DNA of 64,000 nt, from contig JAIMBJ010000013.1 of assembly GCA_023511455.1 (NCBI GenBank), positions 1 through 64,000 on the forward strand. The letters run 5' to 3'. Positions 1 to 10,414 of this stretch are shown one piece after another (the first letter of the stretch is position 1; the number at the start of each line of letters is the position of its first letter). The notes under the pieces were generated by a model that saw only the letters and a list, made by a program, of their open reading frames with translations, had not been told where the DNA came from and searched no databases. Made by a program: the position numbers and the translations under genes. The DNA comes from Bacillota bacterium (GTDB taxonomy: Bacteria > Armatimonadota > HRBIN16).

Positions 1-379
1 TACGGCGGGGGCAACGTGCAGCTGGCGTATGAGTATGGCTACGGATTTGACGGCGGTCGTCGCTGGCGGAAGGACTACCTGAACGGGGTATGGACGCGGT
101 ATCCGTGCGGGGTGGCGTGCGGTGCCGGCGAGTTGGTGGAGCAGCAGAAGCCGCTGGAGGGTGGCAGCTGGACGGTGAGTGCGCTGTATCTGCAGGGCAT
201 CTCGCTGGTGCGCAGAAACAACGAATGGCACCACTTTGACCCGTTGGGCACGGCAGGGGTGATTACGAACGGAAGCGCACAGGTGGTCAGCAACAACCTG
301 TATGACCTGTTCGGGGTGTTGCGCTACCAGCAGGGCAGTGCGCAGACGTCGCTACCTCCCCGCAAGCAGGGAGGAGTTC

Positions 380-406
380 ACGGCTCGGCGCGAGCCTCGC
401 CCTCCA
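380..406. repeat. Interspersed GGAGGGCGAGG-type repeat, copy A
   Basis: The sequence cggctcggcgcgagcctcgc followed by cctcca matches, directly or in reverse complement, elements at 22746-22773, 32771-32792 and 36908-36972. The shared core is tggagggcgag (or ctcgccctcca). It lies inside the end of the RHS remnant. Confidence 0.55.
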
Positions 407-415
407 CAAACGCTG

Positions 416-445
416 TTGCCTTGCATCCTGTCTTTACGCTACAAT
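416..445 (+). promoter_or_regulatory. Promoter for the Asp-box propeller gene
   Basis: TTGCCT (416-421) and TACAAT (440-445) are spaced by 18 bp and lie 38 bp upstream of the start codon at 483. They overlap the end of the RHS remnant. Confidence 0.45.
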
Positions 446-482
446 AGGGTGAGTGTCTGCAAACACCCGGGAGGTTGCGCTC

Positions 483-3400
483 ATGAAGCGTCTTTTGCTG
501 CTACTCGCCCTGTGGACGGCGATTACGTCGTTGGGCGTCGCACAGGAGATCGACCCGTGGGGTATGCCCAAACCCTGGAAGCGACTGGAGTGGTTCTACA
601 GCCGACGTGCCTTCCCGTACAACGATGTGCCAGCAGGGGCATGGCTCAGGGCATACGAACAGGCGCAACAGCTGCCTGTGTATCAGGGTGAGGGGTTACA
701 GGGGCAAGCGCTCACGTGGGAGTTCTTCGGACCGGACAGCACCAACCAGAACTGGCTTGCCCGCGTGAACGCCATCGCCATCCATCCCACCGACCCCAAC
801 ACCATCTACATCGGCGTCTCCAAAGGGGGCGTCTGGAAAAGCACTAACCGCGGCTCCACCTGGACCAACCTGACAGACTTCCTCACGGCGCAGTATGTAG
901 GTTGCCTGACGATAGACCCGCACGACCCCAACACCATCTATCTGGGTACGGGAGAAGAGTACTACGCAGCCTACGCGTTAGGCGGCGTGGGCATCTACAG
1001 GTCAACGGACGGAGGTAACTCGTGGACGCTCATTGGCAACAACGTCTTCTCGGGTCAGCGTATTAACGAGATTGTTATAGACCCAAACAACCGCAATAAA
1101 TGGATAATCAGCACCGATGCTGGCATCTATATCACGACCAACGGCGGCAGCACATTCACCCGCACGCTGAGCGGGGTAGCCTCCGCCCTGCGCGTGCATC
1201 CCGCCAATCCGAACATCCTCTGGGCAGCATTGGGAAACATCTGGGGCAGTTCCACCAACGGCGTGTATGTCTCCACCAACGGCGGCAGCACATGGACGCG
1301 CTACAGTGCCTTGCCTCTGGGAACCAGCGTGGGGCGCATTGAGCTGGACGTGTGCCGCAGTAACCCGAACGTCATCTACGTAGCCTTCGGGCAAACCATC
1401 TCAGCGGGCGCGCGCATCCACAGCGTCTGGAAAACCACCAACGGCGGTAGCAGCTGGACACAGCTGACCGGCGCACCCACCGGCAGCGGGCAGTCGTGGT
1501 ACGATTTGGTCATGCGCGTGGACCCGAGTAATCCGAATATCGCCTACGTCGGAGAGGTGGACTTGTTCCGCACCACCGATGGAGGCAGCTCGTGGACCCG
1601 TATCAATCCACAGGCGACCGTCGGTCACGTGGACCAGCATGCCCTGGAGTTTGACCCCACTGATCCTGCCAAAATCTTCATCGGCAGCGACGGGGGATTG
1701 TTCTACTCTACCAATCGTGGGACGACGCTGACCCCCTTGAACAGCGGCCGTGGCACCATGGAGTTCTACGCTTTCGATGTACATCCCACGAACGCAAACC
1801 GACTGGTGGCAGGTTCTCAGGATAACGGCTCTCAGGTGCGTTCCACTTCCAACAACTATGCCATCACGCTGGGCGGGGATGGCTTCTGGGCGGCATACAA
1901 ACGGAACGACCCTAACACCGTGTTGGGCGAAGTATATTATGCTGTGGTCTATCGCTCCACAAACGGCGGTAGCAGCTGGAGCTTCGTATTTAACGGCAGT
2001 GGCGACCCGCGTTCGCCATGGTCTGCTCCGCTGGTGAACGACCCCAACAACCCATCCACCTTCTACGTGGGCACGATTTATGTGTATCGCTCGACCAGCA
2101 ACGGCGTTTCGGGCAGCTGGACGCGCATCAGCGGTGACCTGACGCGCGGTTCCGGCACGCTGTCCGTCATCGCCATCGCGCCGTCCAACTCGAACGTCAT
2201 CTACACCGGCTCCGACGACGGCGCGGTGTACGTCAGCACCGACGGAGGCAATACCTGGAACGCACGTTACACCGGCCTGCCCACGCGGTCGGTGGGCGGA
2301 ATCGCGGTGGATCCCAGCAATCCGGGCACGGTATACGTGGGGCTGCAAGGGTTTGGCAGCGGGCGCGTCTTCAAAAGCACCAACTATGGCGCATCATGGA
2401 CGAATATCTCAGGCAACCTGCCCGATACGCCGGTGAACTTCCTGATCGTGAACCCCATTGCTCCGAACATGCTCATCGCGGCGACCGATACCGGCGTTTT
2501 CGTGACCACAGACGGCGGCGCGAACTGGGCAAAACTGGGGTTGGGACTGCCCAGCACCCCCTGCCTGCACCTGCGGGCAAACGCCACGACGGGCTACCTA
2601 TATGTTGGCACCTACGGACGAGGTATCTGGCGGATGCCGCTGCCGACAGCTACCTTTGTTACCACGCGCGTGCTGGTGGATAACGTATCGGGCACGCTGG
2701 GTGGCACGGTGAACCTCACGGCGACCCTGCAACGCACCGATACATTGGCAGGCGTTTTGGGCAAGACCCTGCAGTTTGCGGTGGGCGGCGTTCCTGTGGG
2801 CAGCGCGGTAACGAACTCCAGCGGCATTGCCAGCCTTGCCTACACCGTTCCCGAATGGGCGGGCACGGGCAGCCGCACCGTTTCGGTAACATTTGAGGGC
2901 GACACCACTGCCAACCCCTCCAGTGGTTCCGGCACGCTGAGTATCAGCAAGGCGACTCCGGAGATTGTTCTGGATAACCTGACAGCACGACGCGGGCAGA
3001 CCGTGAACCTGCAGGCAACGTTGCGCCGGCAGGACAATGGCGCACCCATCAGCGGCAAGACAATCACCTTCAAAGTGGCAGGTAGCACCGTTGGCACTGC
3101 CAGCACCGATGGTAGCGGCATAGCGACCCTGCCCTACACGGTGCCATTGAGTGCGTCTCTTGGAAGCAGGGTACTCCGCGCCGAGTTCGCAGGAGACACA
3201 GTCTACCTGAGCGCATTCCGAGAGGCTTCGCTCGATGTGCGCAAAGTGCTGATTCAGGGCACGGTGCGCCTCGGCGACTTCGCGGGCGACGTCAACGGTC
3301 TGCCGGTAGCCATCAGCGTCGCACAGGGCAGCAACTCGGAGAGCCTGTCGGCATCGCTGGATAACAGTGGCCGATTCTCGGTGGAAACCGCGCTGGCGGG

Positions 3401-3680
3401 CAGCGGCAGTGTGGCGGTGAAGGTGACGCACTGGCTGCGCCAGCGGGTGAGCGCAAATCTGTCCGGCGAGGCATCACTCTCGTGGAACCTCGTCAATGGA
3501 GACGTGGACGGTGATAACGAAGTGACGCTGCTGGATTTTGGCGCGCTGGTGGCGGCTTTTGGCTCCGCGCCGGGCGACACTCACTGGAACGCGAACGCAG
3601 ACCTTGACGGGGATGAGGAAGTCACCCTGCTCGACTTCGGCATCCTGGTGAGGAACTTCGGCACGCTCGGCGATGATTAG
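483..3680 (+). CDS. Secreted Asp-box beta-propeller protein with Ig-like and dockerin-like domains
   Basis: The product has 1065 residues. ATG 483 is chosen because GGGAGG (469-474) precedes it and the protein then opens with a signal peptide (MKRLLLLLALWTAITSLGVA); a GTG 30 bp upstream would bury it. Residues ~75-700 carry about twelve Asp-box-like blades (STNGGSTWT, STDGGNSWT, TTDGGSSWT and variants), as in sortilin/VPS10-type and BNR propellers. Two Ig-like repeats follow (~725-920). The C-terminus has two Ca-binding dockerin-type loops (DVDGDNEVTLLDFG and DLDGDEEVTLLDFG). It is probably an extracellular carbohydrate- or protein-binding factor. No catalytic residues were recognised, so an enzymatic role is unproven. 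The tail is shared with the gene at 38159. Confidence 0.85.
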   Translation: MKRLLLLLALWTAITSLGVAQEIDPWGMPKPWKRLEWFYSRRAFPYNDVPAGAWLRAYEQAQQLPVYQGEGLQGQALTWEFFGPDSTNQNWLARVNAIAIHPTDPNTIYIGVSKGGVWKSTNRGSTWTNLTDFLTAQYVGCLTIDPHDPNTIYLGTGEEYYAAYALGGVGIYRSTDGGNSWTLIGNNVFSGQRINEIVIDPNNRNKWIISTDAGIYITTNGGSTFTRTLSGVASALRVHPANPNILWAALGNIWGSSTNGVYVSTNGGSTWTRYSALPLGTSVGRIELDVCRSNPNVIYVAFGQTISAGARIHSVWKTTNGGSSWTQLTGAPTGSGQSWYDLVMRVDPSNPNIAYVGEVDLFRTTDGGSSWTRINPQATVGHVDQHALEFDPTDPAKIFIGSDGGLFYSTNRGTTLTPLNSGRGTMEFYAFDVHPTNANRLVAGSQDNGSQVRSTSNNYAITLGGDGFWAAYKRNDPNTVLGEVYYAVVYRSTNGGSSWSFVFNGSGDPRSPWSAPLVNDPNNPSTFYVGTIYVYRSTSNGVSGSWTRISGDLTRGSGTLSVIAIAPSNSNVIYTGSDDGAVYVSTDGGNTWNARYTGLPTRSVGGIAVDPSNPGTVYVGLQGFGSGRVFKSTNYGASWTNISGNLPDTPVNFLIVNPIAPNMLIAATDTGVFVTTDGGANWAKLGLGLPSTPCLHLRANATTGYLYVGTYGRGIWRMPLPTATFVTTRVLVDNVSGTLGGTVNLTATLQRTDTLAGVLGKTLQFAVGGVPVGSAVTNSSGIASLAYTVPEWAGTGSRTVSVTFEGDTTANPSSGSGTLSISKATPEIVLDNLTARRGQTVNLQATLRRQDNGAPISGKTITFKVAGSTVGTASTDGSGIATLPYTVPLSASLGSRVLRAEFAGDTVYLSAFREASLDVRKVLIQGTVRLGDFAGDVNGLPVAISVAQGSNSESLSASLDNSGRFSVETALAGSGSVAVKVTHWLRQRVSANLSGEASLSWNLVNGDVDGDNEVTLLDFGALVAAFGSAPGDTHWNANADLDGDEEVTLLDFGILVRNFGTLGDD

Positions 3681-3684
3681 CGGG

Positions 3685-3690
3685 TATAAT
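3685..3690 (+). promoter_or_regulatory. -10 element for mqnE
   Basis: A perfect TATAAT begins 4 bp after the preceding stop codon and 38 bp before the mqnE start. No convincing -35 box is visible. Confidence 0.35.
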
Positions 3691-3722
3691 AAAGCTAAAC
3701 GAAGCCTCACAAGGAGTGTTGG

Positions 3723-4883
3723 ATGATTGCAGAGCGCGTTCTCGGCAGCGAGTTGATGCCGATATATGAGAAGGTCATGGCAGGCGTTCGCCTCAGTGAA
3801 TCGGACGGGCGCCTGCTTTACCAGACGTCCAATCTCACGGGTGTTGGTTACCTGGCGAACATCGTGCGCGAGCGGCTGCACGGCGATAAGGCGTACTACG
3901 TGCGGAATCAGCACATCAACTACACAAACATCTGTAATAAGCTGTGCCGCTTCTGTTCCTTCTACGCCAAGAAGGGCGGCCCCGCGCCATACACACTGAC
4001 TCCTGAGCAGGTCAAACAGCGGCTCCGCCAGTACCTGCACGTGCCCATCACGGAGGTGCATATCGTGGGGGGCATCCACCCCAAACTGCCCTTCCAGTAC
4101 TACTTAGACCTTCTACATGCGGTGAAGGAAGTGCGTCCGGAGGTGCATATCAAGGCTTTTACCGCAGTCGAGATTGTGCAGATTGCGCAGGTAGCGAGGA
4201 TGAGCTATGAGGACACCCTGCGCACGCTGAAATCGGCGGGGCTGGACAGCCTGCCCGGAGGCGGTCTGGAGATATATTCCGAGCGCATCCACCAGGAGCT
4301 GTTCCCGCGCAAAATCGGTGGGGACGAGTGGAGCGAGGTCGCCCGCGCGGCGGCGCGGGTGGGTCTGAGCCAGTATGCCACCATGCTGTATGGGCACATC
4401 GAAACGATTGAGGAGCGCGTGGAGCATCTCATTCGCCTGCGCGAGCTGCAGGACGAAACAGGGCATTTTCTGGCGCTGACACCGCTCAGCTTCCACCCAG
4501 AGGGGACGGAGCTGGAGCATCTGCCTCATCCGTCTGGCTACGATGACCTGCGCAATATCGCGGTATCCCGCCTGATGCTGGACAACTTCCCGCACATCAA
4601 GTCGTTCTGGATTATGAACACGCCTGCGGTGACCCAGGTAGCGCTGTGGTACGGTGCGGACGACGTGGACGGCACGGTGCACGAGTATGAGATTGTGTAT
4701 CAGGATGAAGCGCCGGGTGAACGCCAGCAATTGCTGACGCGCCGGCAACTGATAGAGATGATTCTGGAGGCAGGGCGTATCCCCATCGAGCGCGACAGCC
4801 ACTACAACGAGGTGCCGCCGCGCCGTGAGGAGGAATTGTCGTTACCTGTGCTTACTTCCGCCGCTGGAGGTGTTTGGCAATGA
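3723..4883 (+). CDS. mqnE: Aminofutalosine synthase MqnE (radical SAM)
   Basis: The product has 386 residues. This radical SAM enzyme of the futalosine route to menaquinone joins the product of MqnA to an adenosyl radical, giving aminofutalosine. The [4Fe-4S]/SAM motif is CNKLCRFC, with C71, C75 and C78 in CX3CX2C spacing. Family landmarks are HIVGGIHPKLPFQYY, PGGGLEIYSERI, LTPLSFHPEGTELEHL and WYGADDVDGTV near the C-terminus, which fit MqnE better than MqnC. AAGGAG sits 8 bp before ATG 3723. It appears monocistronic here; the other mqn genes are not in the window. Confidence 0.9.
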   Translation: MIAERVLGSELMPIYEKVMAGVRLSESDGRLLYQTSNLTGVGYLANIVRERLHGDKAYYVRNQHINYTNICNKLCRFCSFYAKKGGPAPYTLTPEQVKQRLRQYLHVPITEVHIVGGIHPKLPFQYYLDLLHAVKEVRPEVHIKAFTAVEIVQIAQVARMSYEDTLRTLKSAGLDSLPGGGLEIYSERIHQELFPRKIGGDEWSEVARAAARVGLSQYATMLYGHIETIEERVEHLIRLRELQDETGHFLALTPLSFHPEGTELEHLPHPSGYDDLRNIAVSRLMLDNFPHIKSFWIMNTPAVTQVALWYGADDVDGTVHEYEIVYQDEAPGERQQLLTRRQLIEMILEAGRIPIERDSHYNEVPPRREEELSLPVLTSAAGGVWQ

Positions 4884-4928
4884 CATCGTCTCTCAGGAGA
4901 GCAGTTGCCGCACCTCCAAAGGCTCTAT

Positions 4929-5027
4929 CTACGCTCCGGCGATATGCGCCAGACCGAGAACCAGAGCGACGACAACCCCCGCGCAGGCAAGCAGGAAGAC
5001 GAGGCGGTTCGCCACCTGAGCGCTCAT
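4929..5027 (-). CDS. Small single-pass membrane protein (32 aa)
   Basis: Reading the minus strand from ATG 5027 gives 32 codons ending at TAG 4929-4931. The peptide has a short polar N-terminus (MSAQVANR) followed by one hydrophobic segment rich in L, V and A, and ends HIAGA. A good ribosome-binding site (GGAGGG, 4 bp spacer) precedes the start. It lies downstream of the minus-strand secreted-protein operon and may be its last gene. No homologue was recognised. The coding call rests on the RBS plus a coherent transmembrane segment. Confidence 0.45.
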   Translation of the reverse strand: MSAQVANRLVFLLACAGVVVALVLGLAHIAGA

Positions 5028-5134
5028 GATACCCTCCGTAGATGAGTAAGCACACACTCACGGCACGGCAAACCCGTGTCGGCATGAGCACCTGTTCGCT
5101 TTTGTCCGTCTTTTCCCTCTTCAGGGGGCAGCCG

Positions 5135-6442
5135 CTATTTCGGTTGCGCTTTGGGCGATGCCATCACCGAAGTCCGCTTTTCCAGTGTGAAGGGACCCGT
5201 ATCCATCTCCGGTATCAGTTTCAGCGGGTATGCCGCTTTCTGAGGCACTCTCACCGAGAGTGCGCAGGTGAACCCTCAGCCATAGTGGAACTTTTCCACC
5301 TTGACTGTCTTGCCGTTTCGGTCGACGATGCGCAGGGTAGGGGGAGGCGGTAGCTCGCCGTTCATCTCCAGCGAGGTCACCCGGTGCAGCCAGTTTCCCG
5401 TGGACAGTGTCAGGGCGACCTCCAGAGTATCGCCCCGCCGCGTGCCAAAGCCGAGCGACGCCCTCAACTGCTTCGGCAAGGGGAACTTGTTCTCGCCGTC
5501 GGTCACTTTCACGGTAATGGGGTCCATCGGCGTTACTTCTACCCGCCACAGATTTCCCTTGCTATCGCGCGTGCCGACGCGGTAGGTCTGCACGGAGTAT
5601 TCGTCGGCGGGCAGCTGCAGGCGTCCTTCGGTGGTGCTGGCTTCCCAGTAGCCGACCTGTTTGCCAATCGCTATCAGATGCACCTCGGGGTACTCGGTGA
5701 CCAGCGTGCCGGTGCCGATTTCTGTCGGCTGAAACTCGCAGGCAGAGCCGTCGGACGCGAAAGTGAGTCTATAGGTGCGCCCAGCGAGCTGGTAAAAGCG
5801 CGGCACAGGTCGCTGTTGCCGGTCTGGCAGAAAGACGCACCGGTCGCCATCCCAGCGGGTCTTTGCCGGCGTGTCGAACGCCCCATCGGCATTGGCGTCC
5901 AGCAGGGCGATTTTGAGCGTGTTGCCGTTCACCTCCCCTTCAAACAGGCGGTAATCCTCGCTGCGCAGGTATGTCTGCCTCGATCCGACCTCGTCCATCA
6001 CCAGGCTGAAGTAGCGCGACGTCAGCACGCCATTGAGGGACACGGTGAGACGGAACGGACCGTAGCAAACACCGAAGTACCATACCGGGTCGGGAGAGCC
6101 CCGCAGCAGCTCGTCGTCGGTCAGGTCATTGTTGCGGTTGACGTCCACCGCCAGACGATTGCTGTTCGGGTCCATGACCAGATGCCAGTGTTGCGGAGGC
6201 TTGCCCAGCTTCAGCACGCCATACCGGCATGAAGCCTTTGCCCAGTCGGGCAGTTTGACCTCCTTCGGTGGCTGGTTGCGCCATTGCACCGTATGAGTAG
6301 GCGTGATAAATCGAACCGCCTCCTCACCTGTTGACTGCAGGAAGCGTACCTGCCCCTGAGGGCGCACGGTCTCTTCCTGCGCCCACGTCACAGTAAGGGC
6401 GGTAGCACACGCCAGGGCGATGGCACAGAATGTGCGTCGCAT
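5135..6442 (-). CDS. Secreted protein with in-frame TGA (possible selenoprotein or nonsense allele)
   Basis: ATG 6442 opens a signal peptide (MRRTFCAIALACATALTVTWA) and a 388-residue reading frame that stops at TGA 5276-5278. The same frame then continues for 46 plausible residues (GFTCALSVRVPQKAAYPLKL, then a DTGPF motif and a Lys/Pro-rich end) to TAG 5135-5137. This looks like the remainder of the C-terminal beta-strand domain. Twelve bases after the TGA there is a perfect 8-bp hairpin with a GGU loop. The N-terminal part has FDTPAKTRWDGDRCVF and other Ca-loop-like DxNxD motifs (DPNSNRLAVDVNRNNDLTDD region). Function is unknown. It is the second gene of an operon with the gene at 6465-8933 (22-bp gap). 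The TGA may be recoded, a natural stop, or a mutation or assembly error. Confidence 0.6.
5245..5263 (-). promoter_or_regulatory. SECIS-like hairpin downstream of in-frame TGA
   Basis: On the minus strand GCACTCTC and GAGAGTGC form a perfect 8-bp stem with a GGU loop. The loop starts 21 nt after the TGA at 5278-5276. Bacterial SECIS elements are known as short stem-loops just 3' of the UGA with G in a small apical loop. The hairpin also codes LSVRV in the continued frame. No T-run follows, so it is not a standard terminator. Confidence 0.4.
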
Positions 6443-6464
6443 CGCTAATGCACCTCCTTCCCAT

Positions 6465-8933
6465 CTACTGCAGCATTCCGACTACTTTGGGCAACTCTTC
6501 CATCGAGATGCCCTGCCGCGCCGGCTGTCCGTCCGCACCGATGTGAACCACGTAGGGCATCGCAGGCAGGATGAGAGGCAGCGCAGGCGCAGCGGGTTGT
6601 TGCGGGCTGCGCTTCCAGAAGCCGACGGGAACATCCAGCTGTTCCCGGCTGCGGTACCGCTCTGCTTCCTGTCGGCTGGCGGTATCCAGCACAATCGCCA
6701 CCTGCCATCCCTCCCGCATCTGGCTTCTCACCGTCTCCAACAGCCAGTGGTTCTGCGCGAGATAAGGCGCGGTGAAAACGAGCAAAGTGTTTTTGCCTTC
6801 CCACTGCACGGGTTGGAGCCACTCCACTCGCCTCAGCAGCTTCTCCACGTTCGGCTTGGGAGGTGCTTCGCCGCCGCGGTCCCATGGCAGCCGCCTGGCA
6901 CCGAAGGTCAGCACGATGTCCGTCGATGGTTTCACGCGGATGGGTGTCAGCGGCAGGTTCTGCAGACGCGGTGTCAGCAGCAGCGAAGCGGGCATCCCTT
7001 TCAGCGAAAATCTTCCGCTGTCGTCGGTGGTTACACTACCGAGGGGGATAGCCCTTGACGGCACGCGGCGCTGCCGATAATTCTGCGCCGTACGGCTGTT
7101 CGGAAATTCGTATTGCAAAAGCAGATTTGCCTTCGCAATGGGCTCGCCATAATCGTCGACCAGTACGCCGGCATACTCCCCGTTTACCTTTTTCAGCCTT
7201 ATCGTTGCGGTTTGACCTTTGCTCAGGATAGTTGCGGCTGGCTCGTAGCCCTTCGCAGTAACCACCGCCCAGCACCGGCTTTCCGGCACAATCGCGATTA
7301 CGAAACCTCCTGCCCTGTCCGTGCTGCTGGATAGCGGCGTTGGGTATTCCATCCACACCCGCTGTGTGCTTCCGTCGGACAATTGGTACTGCGGCTCCTG
7401 TCCCACTATCAGGCTGACCTTTGCTCCGGCGACGGGCTTGCCCGCCTCGTCCCGGACACGTCCGCGCACTTTGGGTAAAGGCTGCAACCGAACCATTGCG
7501 GGCGGGTTCTTCACGCTGAAGTTGCGGAGGATGATACCCTCCTGCGTGCCGTAGTCCACGATCAGTAACTGCTCCATGCTCTCCCCGCCGACCTGTATGG
7601 TCAGCTTATCGCCCTCGACGCGGTAGGGACGCCAGCTGACCTCGACTTCTTCCTCGGGCACAGGGCTGAGGTTCATCCAGATGTTCTTGGGTACCTCGTT
7701 GCGCGATGTGCGCACCCGTAGTTGAACCTCTTGTGTGCGCTGCACCCGCGTGAGTGCCACTTGCAGCACCACCGGCTGCGGGGCGGTCATCTTACCCTGC
7801 TGTATAGTTACCTTCGGTAGGCTGCGTGGCATGTAGTAACCATCGCCCGAAGCAAAACCAGATGCTTGGAACTGGTATTCGCCATCGGGAAGCGCAATCG
7901 TCAAACTGCCTTTGCTGTCGGTGAAATAGGGAAATCGCACACCGACAGCGCGCCTCCCCTCGGGATTGATAGTTACTCCGCAGAAAGGCACGGGTTTATT
8001 CTTGTCGTCGCGCACCTCTATCGTTATCACCGGCTCTGTGTATACTTTGATCACGCCGAGGTCGGTGGTGGTGCCGGGCTTGAGGTTGGTTACCTCTACC
8101 GGCATAAAGAAACCGGGCGGAACCAGAGTGGGGGAAGACAGCGAGGCGCCGGGCATCAGTGCGAACGAGTCTGTGCCCACGTCCGCAGTGATGCGCCCGT
8201 CCTCGTCGGTCGTGACGTGTGTCCATGGCTCCACCAGCACCGGGTAATGTTTGCATGGTTCGCCGTTGTGGGCGTAAACCAGGCGGGCGGTTATTCGGGC
8301 ACCCGGCTTGAGGGTAATCGCCAAACCTTCTTTGGTCAGCTTTTCCAAATTCGTGCTGCGGATATCCAGCGACGGGGCGTAACCCGAAGCAGAACACAGG
8401 ATACCAACGCCGGACGTTTTCGGGTGCATCGGTAACTGGAAGCTGCCATCCGCGTTGATGGTGGCAACAAAGGGCGGCACAGGCGGCGGGAGCAGTACCT
8501 CGTTGTCACCTTGGAGCACTACGTAATTTAACCGCACCCGTGCTCCCTCGACAGGTCGACCTTCGGCGTTCACCACCTTGCCGTCGAACTGTTTGAGCGG
8601 TTGCAGGCGAAGGGTAAATGAAGGTCTCGACCCCATGCGGATGGTACTGCAACCCAACGTGGGGTGGAATGCCACCACTGCCGAGAGGGTAGAGGGCGGC
8701 ACGACACCCACGAAGCGATAGCGTCCTCTTTCATCGGTAGTGGTGTGCGCAAAGCTTTGCTCTGGCAGACCCAACCATGCCACCACGATGTTCGGGTAAT
8801 AGTATACCTGTGCGCCAGCGACCGGGTTGTTCTCGGCATCCACGACGCGCCCGCTGATGACTGTTGCGCTTTGCGCATGAGCCACACTCCACCAGCACCA
8901 CAACGCCAGCGTCACGGCAAAGACCCTTTTCAT
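6465..8933 (-). CDS. Secreted multi-domain CarboxypepD_reg-like protein with thioredoxin-like C-terminus
   Basis: The product has 822 residues. ATG 8933 follows AAGGAGG, and the protein starts with a signal peptide ending AHAQ. Repeated carboxypeptidase-regulatory-like Ig folds are visible as G-x-V-x-D/N-A-E-x-x-P-V-x-G-A motifs: SGRVVDAENNPVAGAQVYYY, DGKVVNAEGRPVEGARVRLN, RGRVRDEAGKPVAGAKVSLI and a YAGVLVDDYGEPIAKANLLL copy. The last ~110 residues (LLVFTAPYLAQNHWLLETV onward, ending YVVHIGADGQP) read like a thioredoxin/AhpC fold without a CXXC pair. It is probably an exported structural or cell-surface protein. It is the first gene of the operon with the TGA-containing gene. Confidence 0.75.
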   Translation of the reverse strand: MKRVFAVTLALWCWWSVAHAQSATVISGRVVDAENNPVAGAQVYYYPNIVVAWLGLPEQSFAHTTTDERGRYRFVGVVPPSTLSAVVAFHPTLGCSTIRMGSRPSFTLRLQPLKQFDGKVVNAEGRPVEGARVRLNYVVLQGDNEVLLPPPVPPFVATINADGSFQLPMHPKTSGVGILCSASGYAPSLDIRSTNLEKLTKEGLAITLKPGARITARLVYAHNGEPCKHYPVLVEPWTHVTTDEDGRITADVGTDSFALMPGASLSSPTLVPPGFFMPVEVTNLKPGTTTDLGVIKVYTEPVITIEVRDDKNKPVPFCGVTINPEGRRAVGVRFPYFTDSKGSLTIALPDGEYQFQASGFASGDGYYMPRSLPKVTIQQGKMTAPQPVVLQVALTRVQRTQEVQLRVRTSRNEVPKNIWMNLSPVPEEEVEVSWRPYRVEGDKLTIQVGGESMEQLLIVDYGTQEGIILRNFSVKNPPAMVRLQPLPKVRGRVRDEAGKPVAGAKVSLIVGQEPQYQLSDGSTQRVWMEYPTPLSSSTDRAGGFVIAIVPESRCWAVVTAKGYEPAATILSKGQTATIRLKKVNGEYAGVLVDDYGEPIAKANLLLQYEFPNSRTAQNYRQRRVPSRAIPLGSVTTDDSGRFSLKGMPASLLLTPRLQNLPLTPIRVKPSTDIVLTFGARRLPWDRGGEAPPKPNVEKLLRRVEWLQPVQWEGKNTLLVFTAPYLAQNHWLLETVRSQMREGWQVAIVLDTASRQEAERYRSREQLDVPVGFWKRSPQQPAAPALPLILPAMPYVVHIGADGQPARQGISMEELPKVVGMLQ

Positions 8934-9127: not shown

Positions 9128-9156
9128 TTGACAAGACGAATTGAGGGGTGTATACT
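9128..9156 (+). promoter_or_regulatory. Sigma70-type promoter for the first CHRD gene
   Basis: TTGACA (9128-9133) and TATACT (9151-9156) are separated by exactly 17 bp, about 75 bp upstream of ATG 9231. An A/T-rich stretch lies just upstream and could act as an UP element. The rest of the 8934-9230 gap holds the divergent minus-strand leader and no gene that I can support. Confidence 0.75.
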
Positions 9157-9230
9157 GGAAGCAAGGTGGGAGCACAGCTCGCACCAGCATGGTTGCTCAA
9201 CCGTCCATGATGATGAAAGGAGGATGGAGT

Positions 9231-9752
9231 ATGCACCGAATCGCAATCCGGTTGGGGCTTTTTGCTGTGTTGCTTGCGGCAATAGCCCTGCCCTCCAGCG
9301 CCACGGTGTGGGTGTTGACAGCGAACCTCACGGGTAGCCAGGTGGTTCCGCCCACCAGTAGCACCGCCTTCGGGCAGGCTATCATGAGCTACGATGATGT
9401 GTCGAAGCTGTTCAGCCTGGCGGTCTATGAGGTCGGACTCACCCAGAGCGAGATTCTCTCTGCAAAGATTTACGTGGGCGCGCCGGGCACGAACGGCCCC
9501 GCCATCTATGACCTCGATGGCGGTGCGTCATGGTCTGGAAGCGGTATTGTTTACTCGCGCTTTATTGTAGGCGGGCTATTCCCAGCCGCGAATGAGACTG
9601 ACCTTCTAGCGGGTAATACCTACATCCAGATCACCACGCCAGGCGGAGTCAAGGACATTCGGGGTCAGTTGATACCGGTGCCTGAACCTGTGACGCTGGT
9701 TGGTCTGTCCACAGGTCTGGGACTGCTATTGCTGCGACGGAAAAGAGCATAG
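9231..9752 (+). CDS. CHRD-domain protein with PEP-CTERM anchor (His-pair lost)
   Basis: The product has 173 residues. ATG 9231 follows AAAGGAGG (9216-9223), and earlier in-frame starts lack the signal peptide (LGLFAVLLAAIALPSSA). The CHRD fold is marked by NLTGSQVVPPTSSTAFGQ and by GTNGPAIYDL, but the usual HIH of the family reads KIY here. The C-terminus is a PEP-CTERM sorting signal: VPEP, a hydrophobic segment, then RRKRA. PEP-CTERM proteins are processed by an exosortase and placed on the surface or in the exopolysaccharide matrix. A paralogue with the His pair intact lies directly downstream. Confidence 0.85.
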   Translation: MHRIAIRLGLFAVLLAAIALPSSATVWVLTANLTGSQVVPPTSSTAFGQAIMSYDDVSKLFSLAVYEVGLTQSEILSAKIYVGAPGTNGPAIYDLDGGASWSGSGIVYSRFIVGGLFPAANETDLLAGNTYIQITTPGGVKDIRGQLIPVPEPVTLVGLSTGLGLLLLRRKRA

Positions 9753-9880: not shown

Positions 9881-10414
9881 TTGAAAGGACTGACAGCACG
9901 TTTGGCTTTGCTGGTAGCGCTGGTGGTGGCGGTAGCGCTGCCTTCACACGCGGGACTTTGGTACCTGCAAGCGACCCTGAGCGGCTCGCAGGAAGTGCCA
10001 CCGGTGTCGACGAACGCCAGTGGGGTGCTTTTTGGCAGCTACGATGACGTTGCCAAAACCATCAGCCTGGCGATAACGGTGAGCGGCATCGCGCAAAGCG
10101 ACCTGACCGCATCGCACATTCACCGCGCTCCTGCGGGAAGCAACGGCCCCGTTATCTTCAGCATCGGCGGCGGGAGCAGCTATGCCGTGTTGGGGGGACA
10201 GCTCATCACGGTGATTAACAACGCGCCGTTCCCCGCGGCAGAAGAGGCGAACTTACTGAGTGGCAACACCTACGTCAACATCCACACCACTTCTTTCCCC
10301 GCGGGCGAGATCCGCGGACAGATTACCGCCTTGCCGGTGGTGCCAGAGCCTGCGACGATTGCCGGGTTGGGCATCGGCGTGGGACTGCTGGCGCTTCGAC
10401 GGCGAAAAAAGTAG
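9881..10414 (+). CDS. CHRD-domain protein with PEP-CTERM anchor
   Basis: The product has 177 residues. The start is TTG 9881, preceded at good spacing by AAAGGAGGG (9864-9872). A signal peptide (LALLVALVVAVALPSHA) is followed by a CHRD domain with TLSGSQEVPPVSTNASG and the canonical HIHRAPAGSNGPV motif, then AGEIRGQI. The PEP-CTERM tail is VPEP, a hydrophobic stretch and LRRRKK. It is a tandem paralogue of the preceding gene, possibly cotranscribed with it, and ends at a strong terminator. Confidence 0.87.
   Translation: MKGLTARLALLVALVVAVALPSHAGLWYLQATLSGSQEVPPVSTNASGVLFGSYDDVAKTISLAITVSGIAQSDLTASHIHRAPAGSNGPVIFSIGGGSSYAVLGGQLITVINNAPFPAAEEANLLSGNTYVNIHTTSFPAGEIRGQITALPVVPEPATIAGLGIGVGLLALRRRKK

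Follow-up and report, generated by a model that had tools for sequence, protein, structure and literature searches.

Selenoproteins that invite comparison with the gene described here include the glutathione peroxidase (GPx) and thioredoxin selenoproteins, in which selenocysteine (Sec, U) is paired with Cys and, in GPx, presumably lies within a U-G-x-T motif, and the DUF1573 selenoproteins, whose domain we take to have an immunoglobulin-like (Ig-like) fold. DUF1573 (PF07610, motif UGC) forms a row in Table 1 of PMC13188914, and a GUxG motif is found in Hypothetical protein DG (NF049953; deep-Sep 2025), which was described from Desulfosediminicola (PMC12013277). The published model of the bacterial Sec insertion sequence (bSECIS) specifies a loop of 3–9 nt with a G in loop positions 1–2, a stem of 4–16 bp, a spacing of 16–37 nt, and a minimum free energy (MFE) of -7.5 or lower (PMC13188914). 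Here we analyze a stretch of 64,000 nt (the window; positions 1–64,000 of contig JAIMBJ010000013.1 in assembly GCA_023511455.1, Bacillota bacterium, placed by GTDB in Armatimonadota, HRBIN16) in which a gene for a putatively exported protein on the reverse strand contains an in-frame TGA. This TGA (5276-5278) is very probably decoded as Sec, and the gene very probably belongs to a new selenoprotein family of Armatimonadota; the analysis shows directly that the TGA is conserved, that the SECIS hairpin covaries, that the genome has the full machinery for Sec, that Cys counterparts exist, that the codons past the TGA are under purifying selection, and that domains have been swapped.

The open reading frame (ORF) of 388 amino acids (aa) at 6442..5279 (reverse strand) ends in KVEKFHYG and is followed by TGA at 5278-5276, after which 46 further codons (GFTCALSVRVPQKAAYPLKLIPEMDTGPFTLEKRTSVMASPKAQPK) stay open until TAG at 5137-5135. 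An earlier note on this sequence had drawn attention to the frame that stops at TGA and to the 46 residues that continue in it, and its coordinates and details of the frame are all correct. Open frames after TGA are frequent in this GC-rich window (at least 33 open codons follow 602 of 1,684 TGAs), and proof of Sec therefore rests on comparative evidence.

A first search, using the 388 residues that precede the TGA against 101 genomes, identified five orthologues from the same genus (49–93% identity over the aligned part and 48–92% across the read-through product) as well as remoter matches. All five of these orthologues have TGA at the same residue, as do a paralogue of approximately 30% identity in genome G001 and a protein of genome G045; in the latter, the frame runs 185 residues past the TGA so that the Sec domain is internal. 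The conserved context F[HE]YG-TGA-GFTC, continuing as GFTC[AST]LS[VW]R[VA]P, corresponds overall to FHYG-U-GFTC..LS.R.P...GPF. A second search with a profile of the C-terminal domain, and then with an iterated profile, covered 291 genomes of the phylum Armatimonadota. The iterated profile found matches in 34 genomes, 27 of which have members with TGA; of the 52 distinct loci, 45 carry this codon in the Sec column, as does an additional copy (G001:C36), and none carries TAA or TAG there. The seven remaining loci encode Cys (twice, in G283 and G257), Ser, Arg, Leu, Asp, and Gly; the Cys homologues (L098/L122 with TGC in FGCGGVC, and L133 with TGT) are only two, are remote, and do not fall near the branch of the window protein. 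Cys follows within a few residues of Sec at 34 of the 45 TGA loci, and the ratio of nonsynonymous to synonymous substitution rates (dN/dS) for the residues after the TGA is 0.07–0.37 among six congeners, indicating purifying selection. Where the earlier note had allowed that homologues might end naturally at this point or that reads might show another codon, the homologues continue past this point, most of them with TGA there and two with Cys, and a read error is ruled out because the same TGA occurs in many independently assembled genomes.

The G045 protein (L007:2632-3189) continues after its Sec domain with a prepilin-like tail, whose end, DGHASWRPK, we take to be of the H-x9-DG type. A short branch (L092, L093, L096, L097, and L099) carries the motif YG-U-GGGG, mostly without the partner Cys, in proteins of approximately 200 aa with no obvious signal peptide; these possibly have a different function.

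The hairpin that begins 12 nt past the TGA, GCACTCTC-GGT-GAGAGTGC, has eight Watson–Crick pairs around a GGU loop of 3 nt that occupies nt 21-23, exactly the geometry that had been reported in the earlier note, and it satisfies every constraint of the published bSECIS model (PMC13188914). With a loop that starts with GG 21 nt after the UGA on an 8-bp stem, the element shows no essential difference from those used in SelB-dependent UGA decoding, and decoding looks standard in this gene. When the 1,689 TGAs on both strands of the window were scanned for a G-bearing loop of 3–5 nt starting at nt 18–24 after the TGA, two had a Watson–Crick hairpin of at least 7 bp, and the better one, with 8 bp, matches this hairpin. 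Its folding energy (MFE -12.4 kcal/mol) is by itself unremarkable (z -1.37, with equally good folding in 19 of 200 shuffles), and the thermodynamic z-score was discarded as evidence.

Covariation was assessed in alignments of 34 sequences (14 + 20) kept in codon register, not fitted to structure, and compared with 500 shuffles. The alignment of 14 sequences (classes YGUGFTC and YGUGGGG) retains seven pairs, with 99% of cells paired; six of the seven show changes in both arms, and compensatory cells number 24 vs. 6.7 in shuffles. The alignment of 20 sequences (YGUGGxC type) retains six pairs, with 100% of cells paired; five show changes in both arms, and compensatory cells number 18 vs. 3.9. 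Two-sided compensatory changes thus total 42, with 99–100% of stem cells paired; none of the 500 shuffles matches the observed pairing, number of compensatory cells, or covariation score, and the signal is lost when the stem arms are slid. Loops across the family are mostly GGU, GUG, or GGG, and stems have at least six pairs (G-U counted) in members with TGA and at most five in homologues without it.

The genome from which the window derives encodes a tRNA-Sec with anticodon TCA, SelB (413.7 bits), SelA (597.4 bits), and SelD (385.1 bits), which disposes of the absence of Sec machinery that the earlier note had considered. The SelD gene itself has an in-frame TGA (CAG-U-ASK) with a strong GUG-loop hairpin and, as a selenoprotein gene, serves as an internal control for the reading of UGA as Sec in the same organism. 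A SelA match is found in 26 of the 27 genomes with TGA members (that of G062 is fragmentary and under the cutoff) and in neither of the two genomes with Cys homologues; for the first 101 genomes, the co-occurrence with SelA is 12 of 13 versus 37 of 88 (Fisher p 0.0006, relatedness not corrected for). Beyond what the earlier note had described, the family extends across the phylum, and some of its members are neighbors of selA: relatives of classes B and C are located 52–183 nt from selA in G273, G249, G097, and G243, and a relative in G016 lies inside a region with selD, tRNA-Sec, selA, and selB. NapH-like Fer4_5 proteins are encoded near the relatives in G273 and G016, a hint of electron supply in these relatives; the neighbor of the window gene is a conserved exported CarboxypepD_reg protein.

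In G016, the class C gene (GFG-U-GGAPCYSVRV; L154, G016:C21:1-10000, approximately 1984-8300) is flanked by selD and tRNA-Sec and located upstream of both selA and selB; a B12-binding protein, a URO-D-like methyltransferase, and also a Fer4_5 polyferredoxin are encoded in the same stretch. In G273 (L143, G273:C122:11500-18000, 263-5261), three tandem family genes directly precede selA and are themselves preceded by a NapH-like Fer4_5 protein, forming a selenoprotein operon. A SelB match in G079 (G079:C31:2536-3663) has a reading frame that contains a single in-frame TGA, which may reflect a pseudogene or an error.

The N-terminus of the window protein resembles a signal peptide (MRRTFCAIALACATALTVTWAQ), and the loop patterns DxNxNxDLxxDE and DxNxDGxFD are both present, consistent with the exported, Ca-loop-containing protein that the earlier note had predicted. 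The AlphaFold model has a predicted local distance difference test (pLDDT) score of 83.6 for the whole protein and of 94.7 for the C-terminal 197 residues, the part after Sec being among the best modeled. In this model, the C-terminal region is all-beta without a thioredoxin fold, and Sec occupies a short turn that immediately precedes the strand starting at Cys393. The fold neighbors of the domain in the PDB are Ig-like beta-sandwiches of low template-modeling score (DUF3823, butyrophilin); a fold search of the PDB with the full protein gave nothing under E 1e-3, a PDB sequence search gave chance matches only, and the Pfam MG2 and FlgD Ig-like models are touched by few members, below cutoff strength. 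The scaffold thus differs from that of the GPx and thioredoxin selenoproteins, and we take the resemblance of UGFT to the GPx motif to be a likeness and not homology. The TlpA/ResA-like thioredoxin proteins of Armatimonadota (L008-L012, L016-L018) share the N-terminal Ca-loop domain with the window protein (hhalign 99.2%, E 3.6e-19) and are likewise putatively exported, with a C-terminal redox motif; their own C-terminal module, however, is an AhpC-TSA/Redoxin fold with WCGPC in place of the Ig-like Sec domain.

We propose that SelB with Sec-tRNA(Sec) would read the UGA as Sec, directed by the stem-loop 13–31 nt downstream, to give an exported protein of 435 aa with an N-terminal beta domain bearing the Ca-loop motifs and a C-terminal Ig-like beta-sandwich, in which Sec389 and Cys393 would be paired as UxxxC where one of the last strands begins. 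Recoding to U-G-F-T-C had been suggested in the earlier note and gains support from the conserved TGA, the Cys counterparts, the machinery, and the covarying SECIS; selenium insertion itself and export we infer. The gene would represent a single branch of an Armatimonadota-wide family of Ig-like domains that bear Sec. Because the N-domain is shared with the WCGPC proteins, the Sec Ig-like domain appears to take the position of the TlpA/ResA-type thioredoxin domain of these sister proteins, and this domain swap, combined with the Sec/Cys pair, points to a thiol/selenol oxidoreductase, or a reductase of an oxidized substrate, that acts outside the cytoplasm. Such an extracytoplasmic redox role, either thiol/disulfide exchange or reduction of an oxidized substrate, is the most likely function and seems somewhat more probable than not. 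More tentatively, and with slightly less than even confidence, we suggest that exported selenoproteins have diversified into a superfamily within Armatimonadota, with Sec on an Ig-like beta-sandwich as the active site (core motif [YF]G-U-G) and in place of thioredoxin modules outside the cytoplasm. This superfamily, whose genes in some lineages accompany those of the Sec machinery and lie close to genes for NapH-like Fe-S proteins, would constitute a new class of extracytoplasmic selenium oxidoreductases.

Several observations weigh against parts of this interpretation. The resolving Cys is missing at 11 of the 45 TGA loci, so that UxxxC is not a universal active site; either Sec acts alone with an external thiol at this quarter of loci or some branches differ in function. 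G003, G004, G005, and G008, from the same genus, have SelA without the gene (recent losses, transfer, or assembly gaps are candidate explanations), G009 lacks a SelA match in the presence of SelB, tRNA-Sec, and SelD (its sequence may be incomplete), and the copy in the window is unlinked to the sel genes (contig C13 vs. C2, C8, C9, and C10). The case for redox chemistry is built on domain architecture and on what is generally known of Sec. A function other than that of an oxidoreductase, such as metal binding, selenium storage or carriage, or a regulatory or structural role, is the most serious competitor, to which the loci without partner Cys, the Ig-like rather than thioredoxin scaffold, and the location of some members within sel gene clusters all lend weight; we nevertheless regard it as unlikely in view of the exchange with WCGPC thioredoxin modules, the Cys counterparts, the U plus Cys found at most loci, and the NapH-like Fe-S protein genes near some relatives.

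The other alternatives fare worse. An ORF of 388 aa makes an acceptable gene, TGA serves as a normal stop at other genes of this genome, and open frames after TGA are common in the window, all of which would suit an ordinary stop with the protein ending at FHYG and the remainder untranslated. This explanation is refuted by the conservation of TGA in a column that contains neither TAA nor TAG in 46 loci, by residues after the TGA that are conserved down to families at approximately 20–30% identity and are under purifying selection, by SECIS covariation, by an extension that completes the predicted domain, and by Cys homologues that read through, and we consider it very improbable. That a sense codon normally present in this gene was turned into TGA by a nonsense mutation or by faulty assembly, for which the draft state of the genome (73 contigs) might speak, has a negligible probability: the orthologues and the loci found with the iterated profile carry the same TGA in many independent assemblies, from species down to approximately 20% identity, and the SECIS covaries. 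Read-through is clear, and another amino acid might be inserted through a code change or a suppressor tRNA; this is scarcely probable given tRNA-Sec, SelA, and SelB, the co-occurrence with SelA, the replacement by Cys where the genome lacks SelA, a SECIS-like hairpin found only with TGA, and the use of TGA as a stop elsewhere. Termination and Sec insertion compete at bacterial UGA/Sec codons generally, and the UGA could therefore act as a selenium switch with both the 388-aa and the 435-aa forms being made in a ratio that reports selenium supply. The predicted C-terminal domain is, however, incomplete without the extension and nothing suggests a role for the short form, so we consider such a switch improbable, albeit less so than termination alone.

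The conclusion that the protein family is new, its decoding being standard, is supported by NCBIfam, Pfam, a 2026 review, and the open-access literature, in agreement with the possible new selenoprotein family of the earlier note. None of eight family proteins tested against NCBIfam 20 at E <= 0.01 matched a family, including NF049953, with which the new family shares a GUxG-type motif; no Pfam family matched above its own cutoff; and no row of the 119-family selenoprotein review of May 2026 fits. The DUF1573 selenoproteins are alike in having an Ig-like domain but differ in that PF07610 does not match the new family, whose motif is YGUG(F/G)xC and not UGC. No paper in the open-access library searched names both Armatimonadota and selenocysteine; GenBank nr and preprints lie outside this scope, and an unpublished or GenBank-only annotation may therefore exist. 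A wider contig scan with five class B sequences found four loci, three from Armatimonadota/Armatimonadetes and one from Candidatus Zipacnadia (read as the same phylum), one of which (L160) duplicates G249 sequences; this survey beyond the phylum is weak and covered class B. A plasmid search gave no match.

Bacterial selenoproteins are easily overlooked when UGA is annotated as stop, and routine annotation would truncate all members of this family. Its approximately 46 members in 27 genomes of a single phylum (among 291 surveyed) lie outside the NCBIfam models and the 2026 catalogue and place Sec on an Ig-like scaffold instead of the usual thioredoxin-type fold, in several motif classes with and without partner Cys. 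The domain swap with thioredoxin makes the function directly testable.

Table 1. Positions in the window of the features of the candidate selenoprotein gene and its neighbor
Feature	Position	Strand	Basis
Full coding sequence, 435 aa, TGA = Sec at residue 389, true stop TAG 5135-5137	5138..6442	-	homologues collinear along entire length
Sec codon UGA, motif Y-G-U-G-F-T-C	5276..5278	-	same-column TGA in homologues
bSECIS hairpin, 8-bp stem (5263-5256 with 5252-5245), GGU loop 5255-5253	5245..5263	-	geometry and covariation in 34 sequences
46-residue part after Sec, last strands of C-terminal beta-sandwich	5138..5275	-	AF2 pLDDT mostly 85-97; dN/dS 0.07-0.37 among six congeners
C-terminal tandem Ig-like (beta-sandwich) region with Sec, residues 239-435, shared family domain	5138..5728	-	profiles; model pLDDT 94.7
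N-terminal all-beta domain with two Ca-loop-like motifs	5693..6370	-	homologous to N-domain of TlpA-like thioredoxin proteins of the same phylum
Ca-loop-like motif DVNRNNDLTDDE	6110..6145	-	D, N, D, L columns invariant in N-domain alignment
Ca-loop-like motif DANADGAFDT	5870..5899	-	invariant columns in N-domain alignment
Probable signal peptide, Sec-pathway (MRRTFCAIALACATALTVTWA)	6380..6442	-	read from sequence; like N-termini in L003-L006, L015
Upstream gene, 822 aa, exported, CarboxypepD_reg repeats	6465..8933	-	conserved directly upstream

The 822-aa upstream gene is a probable operon partner: it is found with 38–81% identity beside the orthologue in G002, G009, G006, and G001 and beside the start of the G007 orthologue (L014). 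The last approximately 150 residues of its product, outside the recognized repeats, look by eye like a thioredoxin fold without Cys; Pfam gave no support for such a domain, and the assignment was rejected. Elsewhere in the window, two adjacent exported proteins are encoded at 9141-9752 and 9881-10414 with the tails PEPVTLVGL and PEPATIAGL, which we take to be CHRD-domain-like proteins with PEP-CTERM-type tails.
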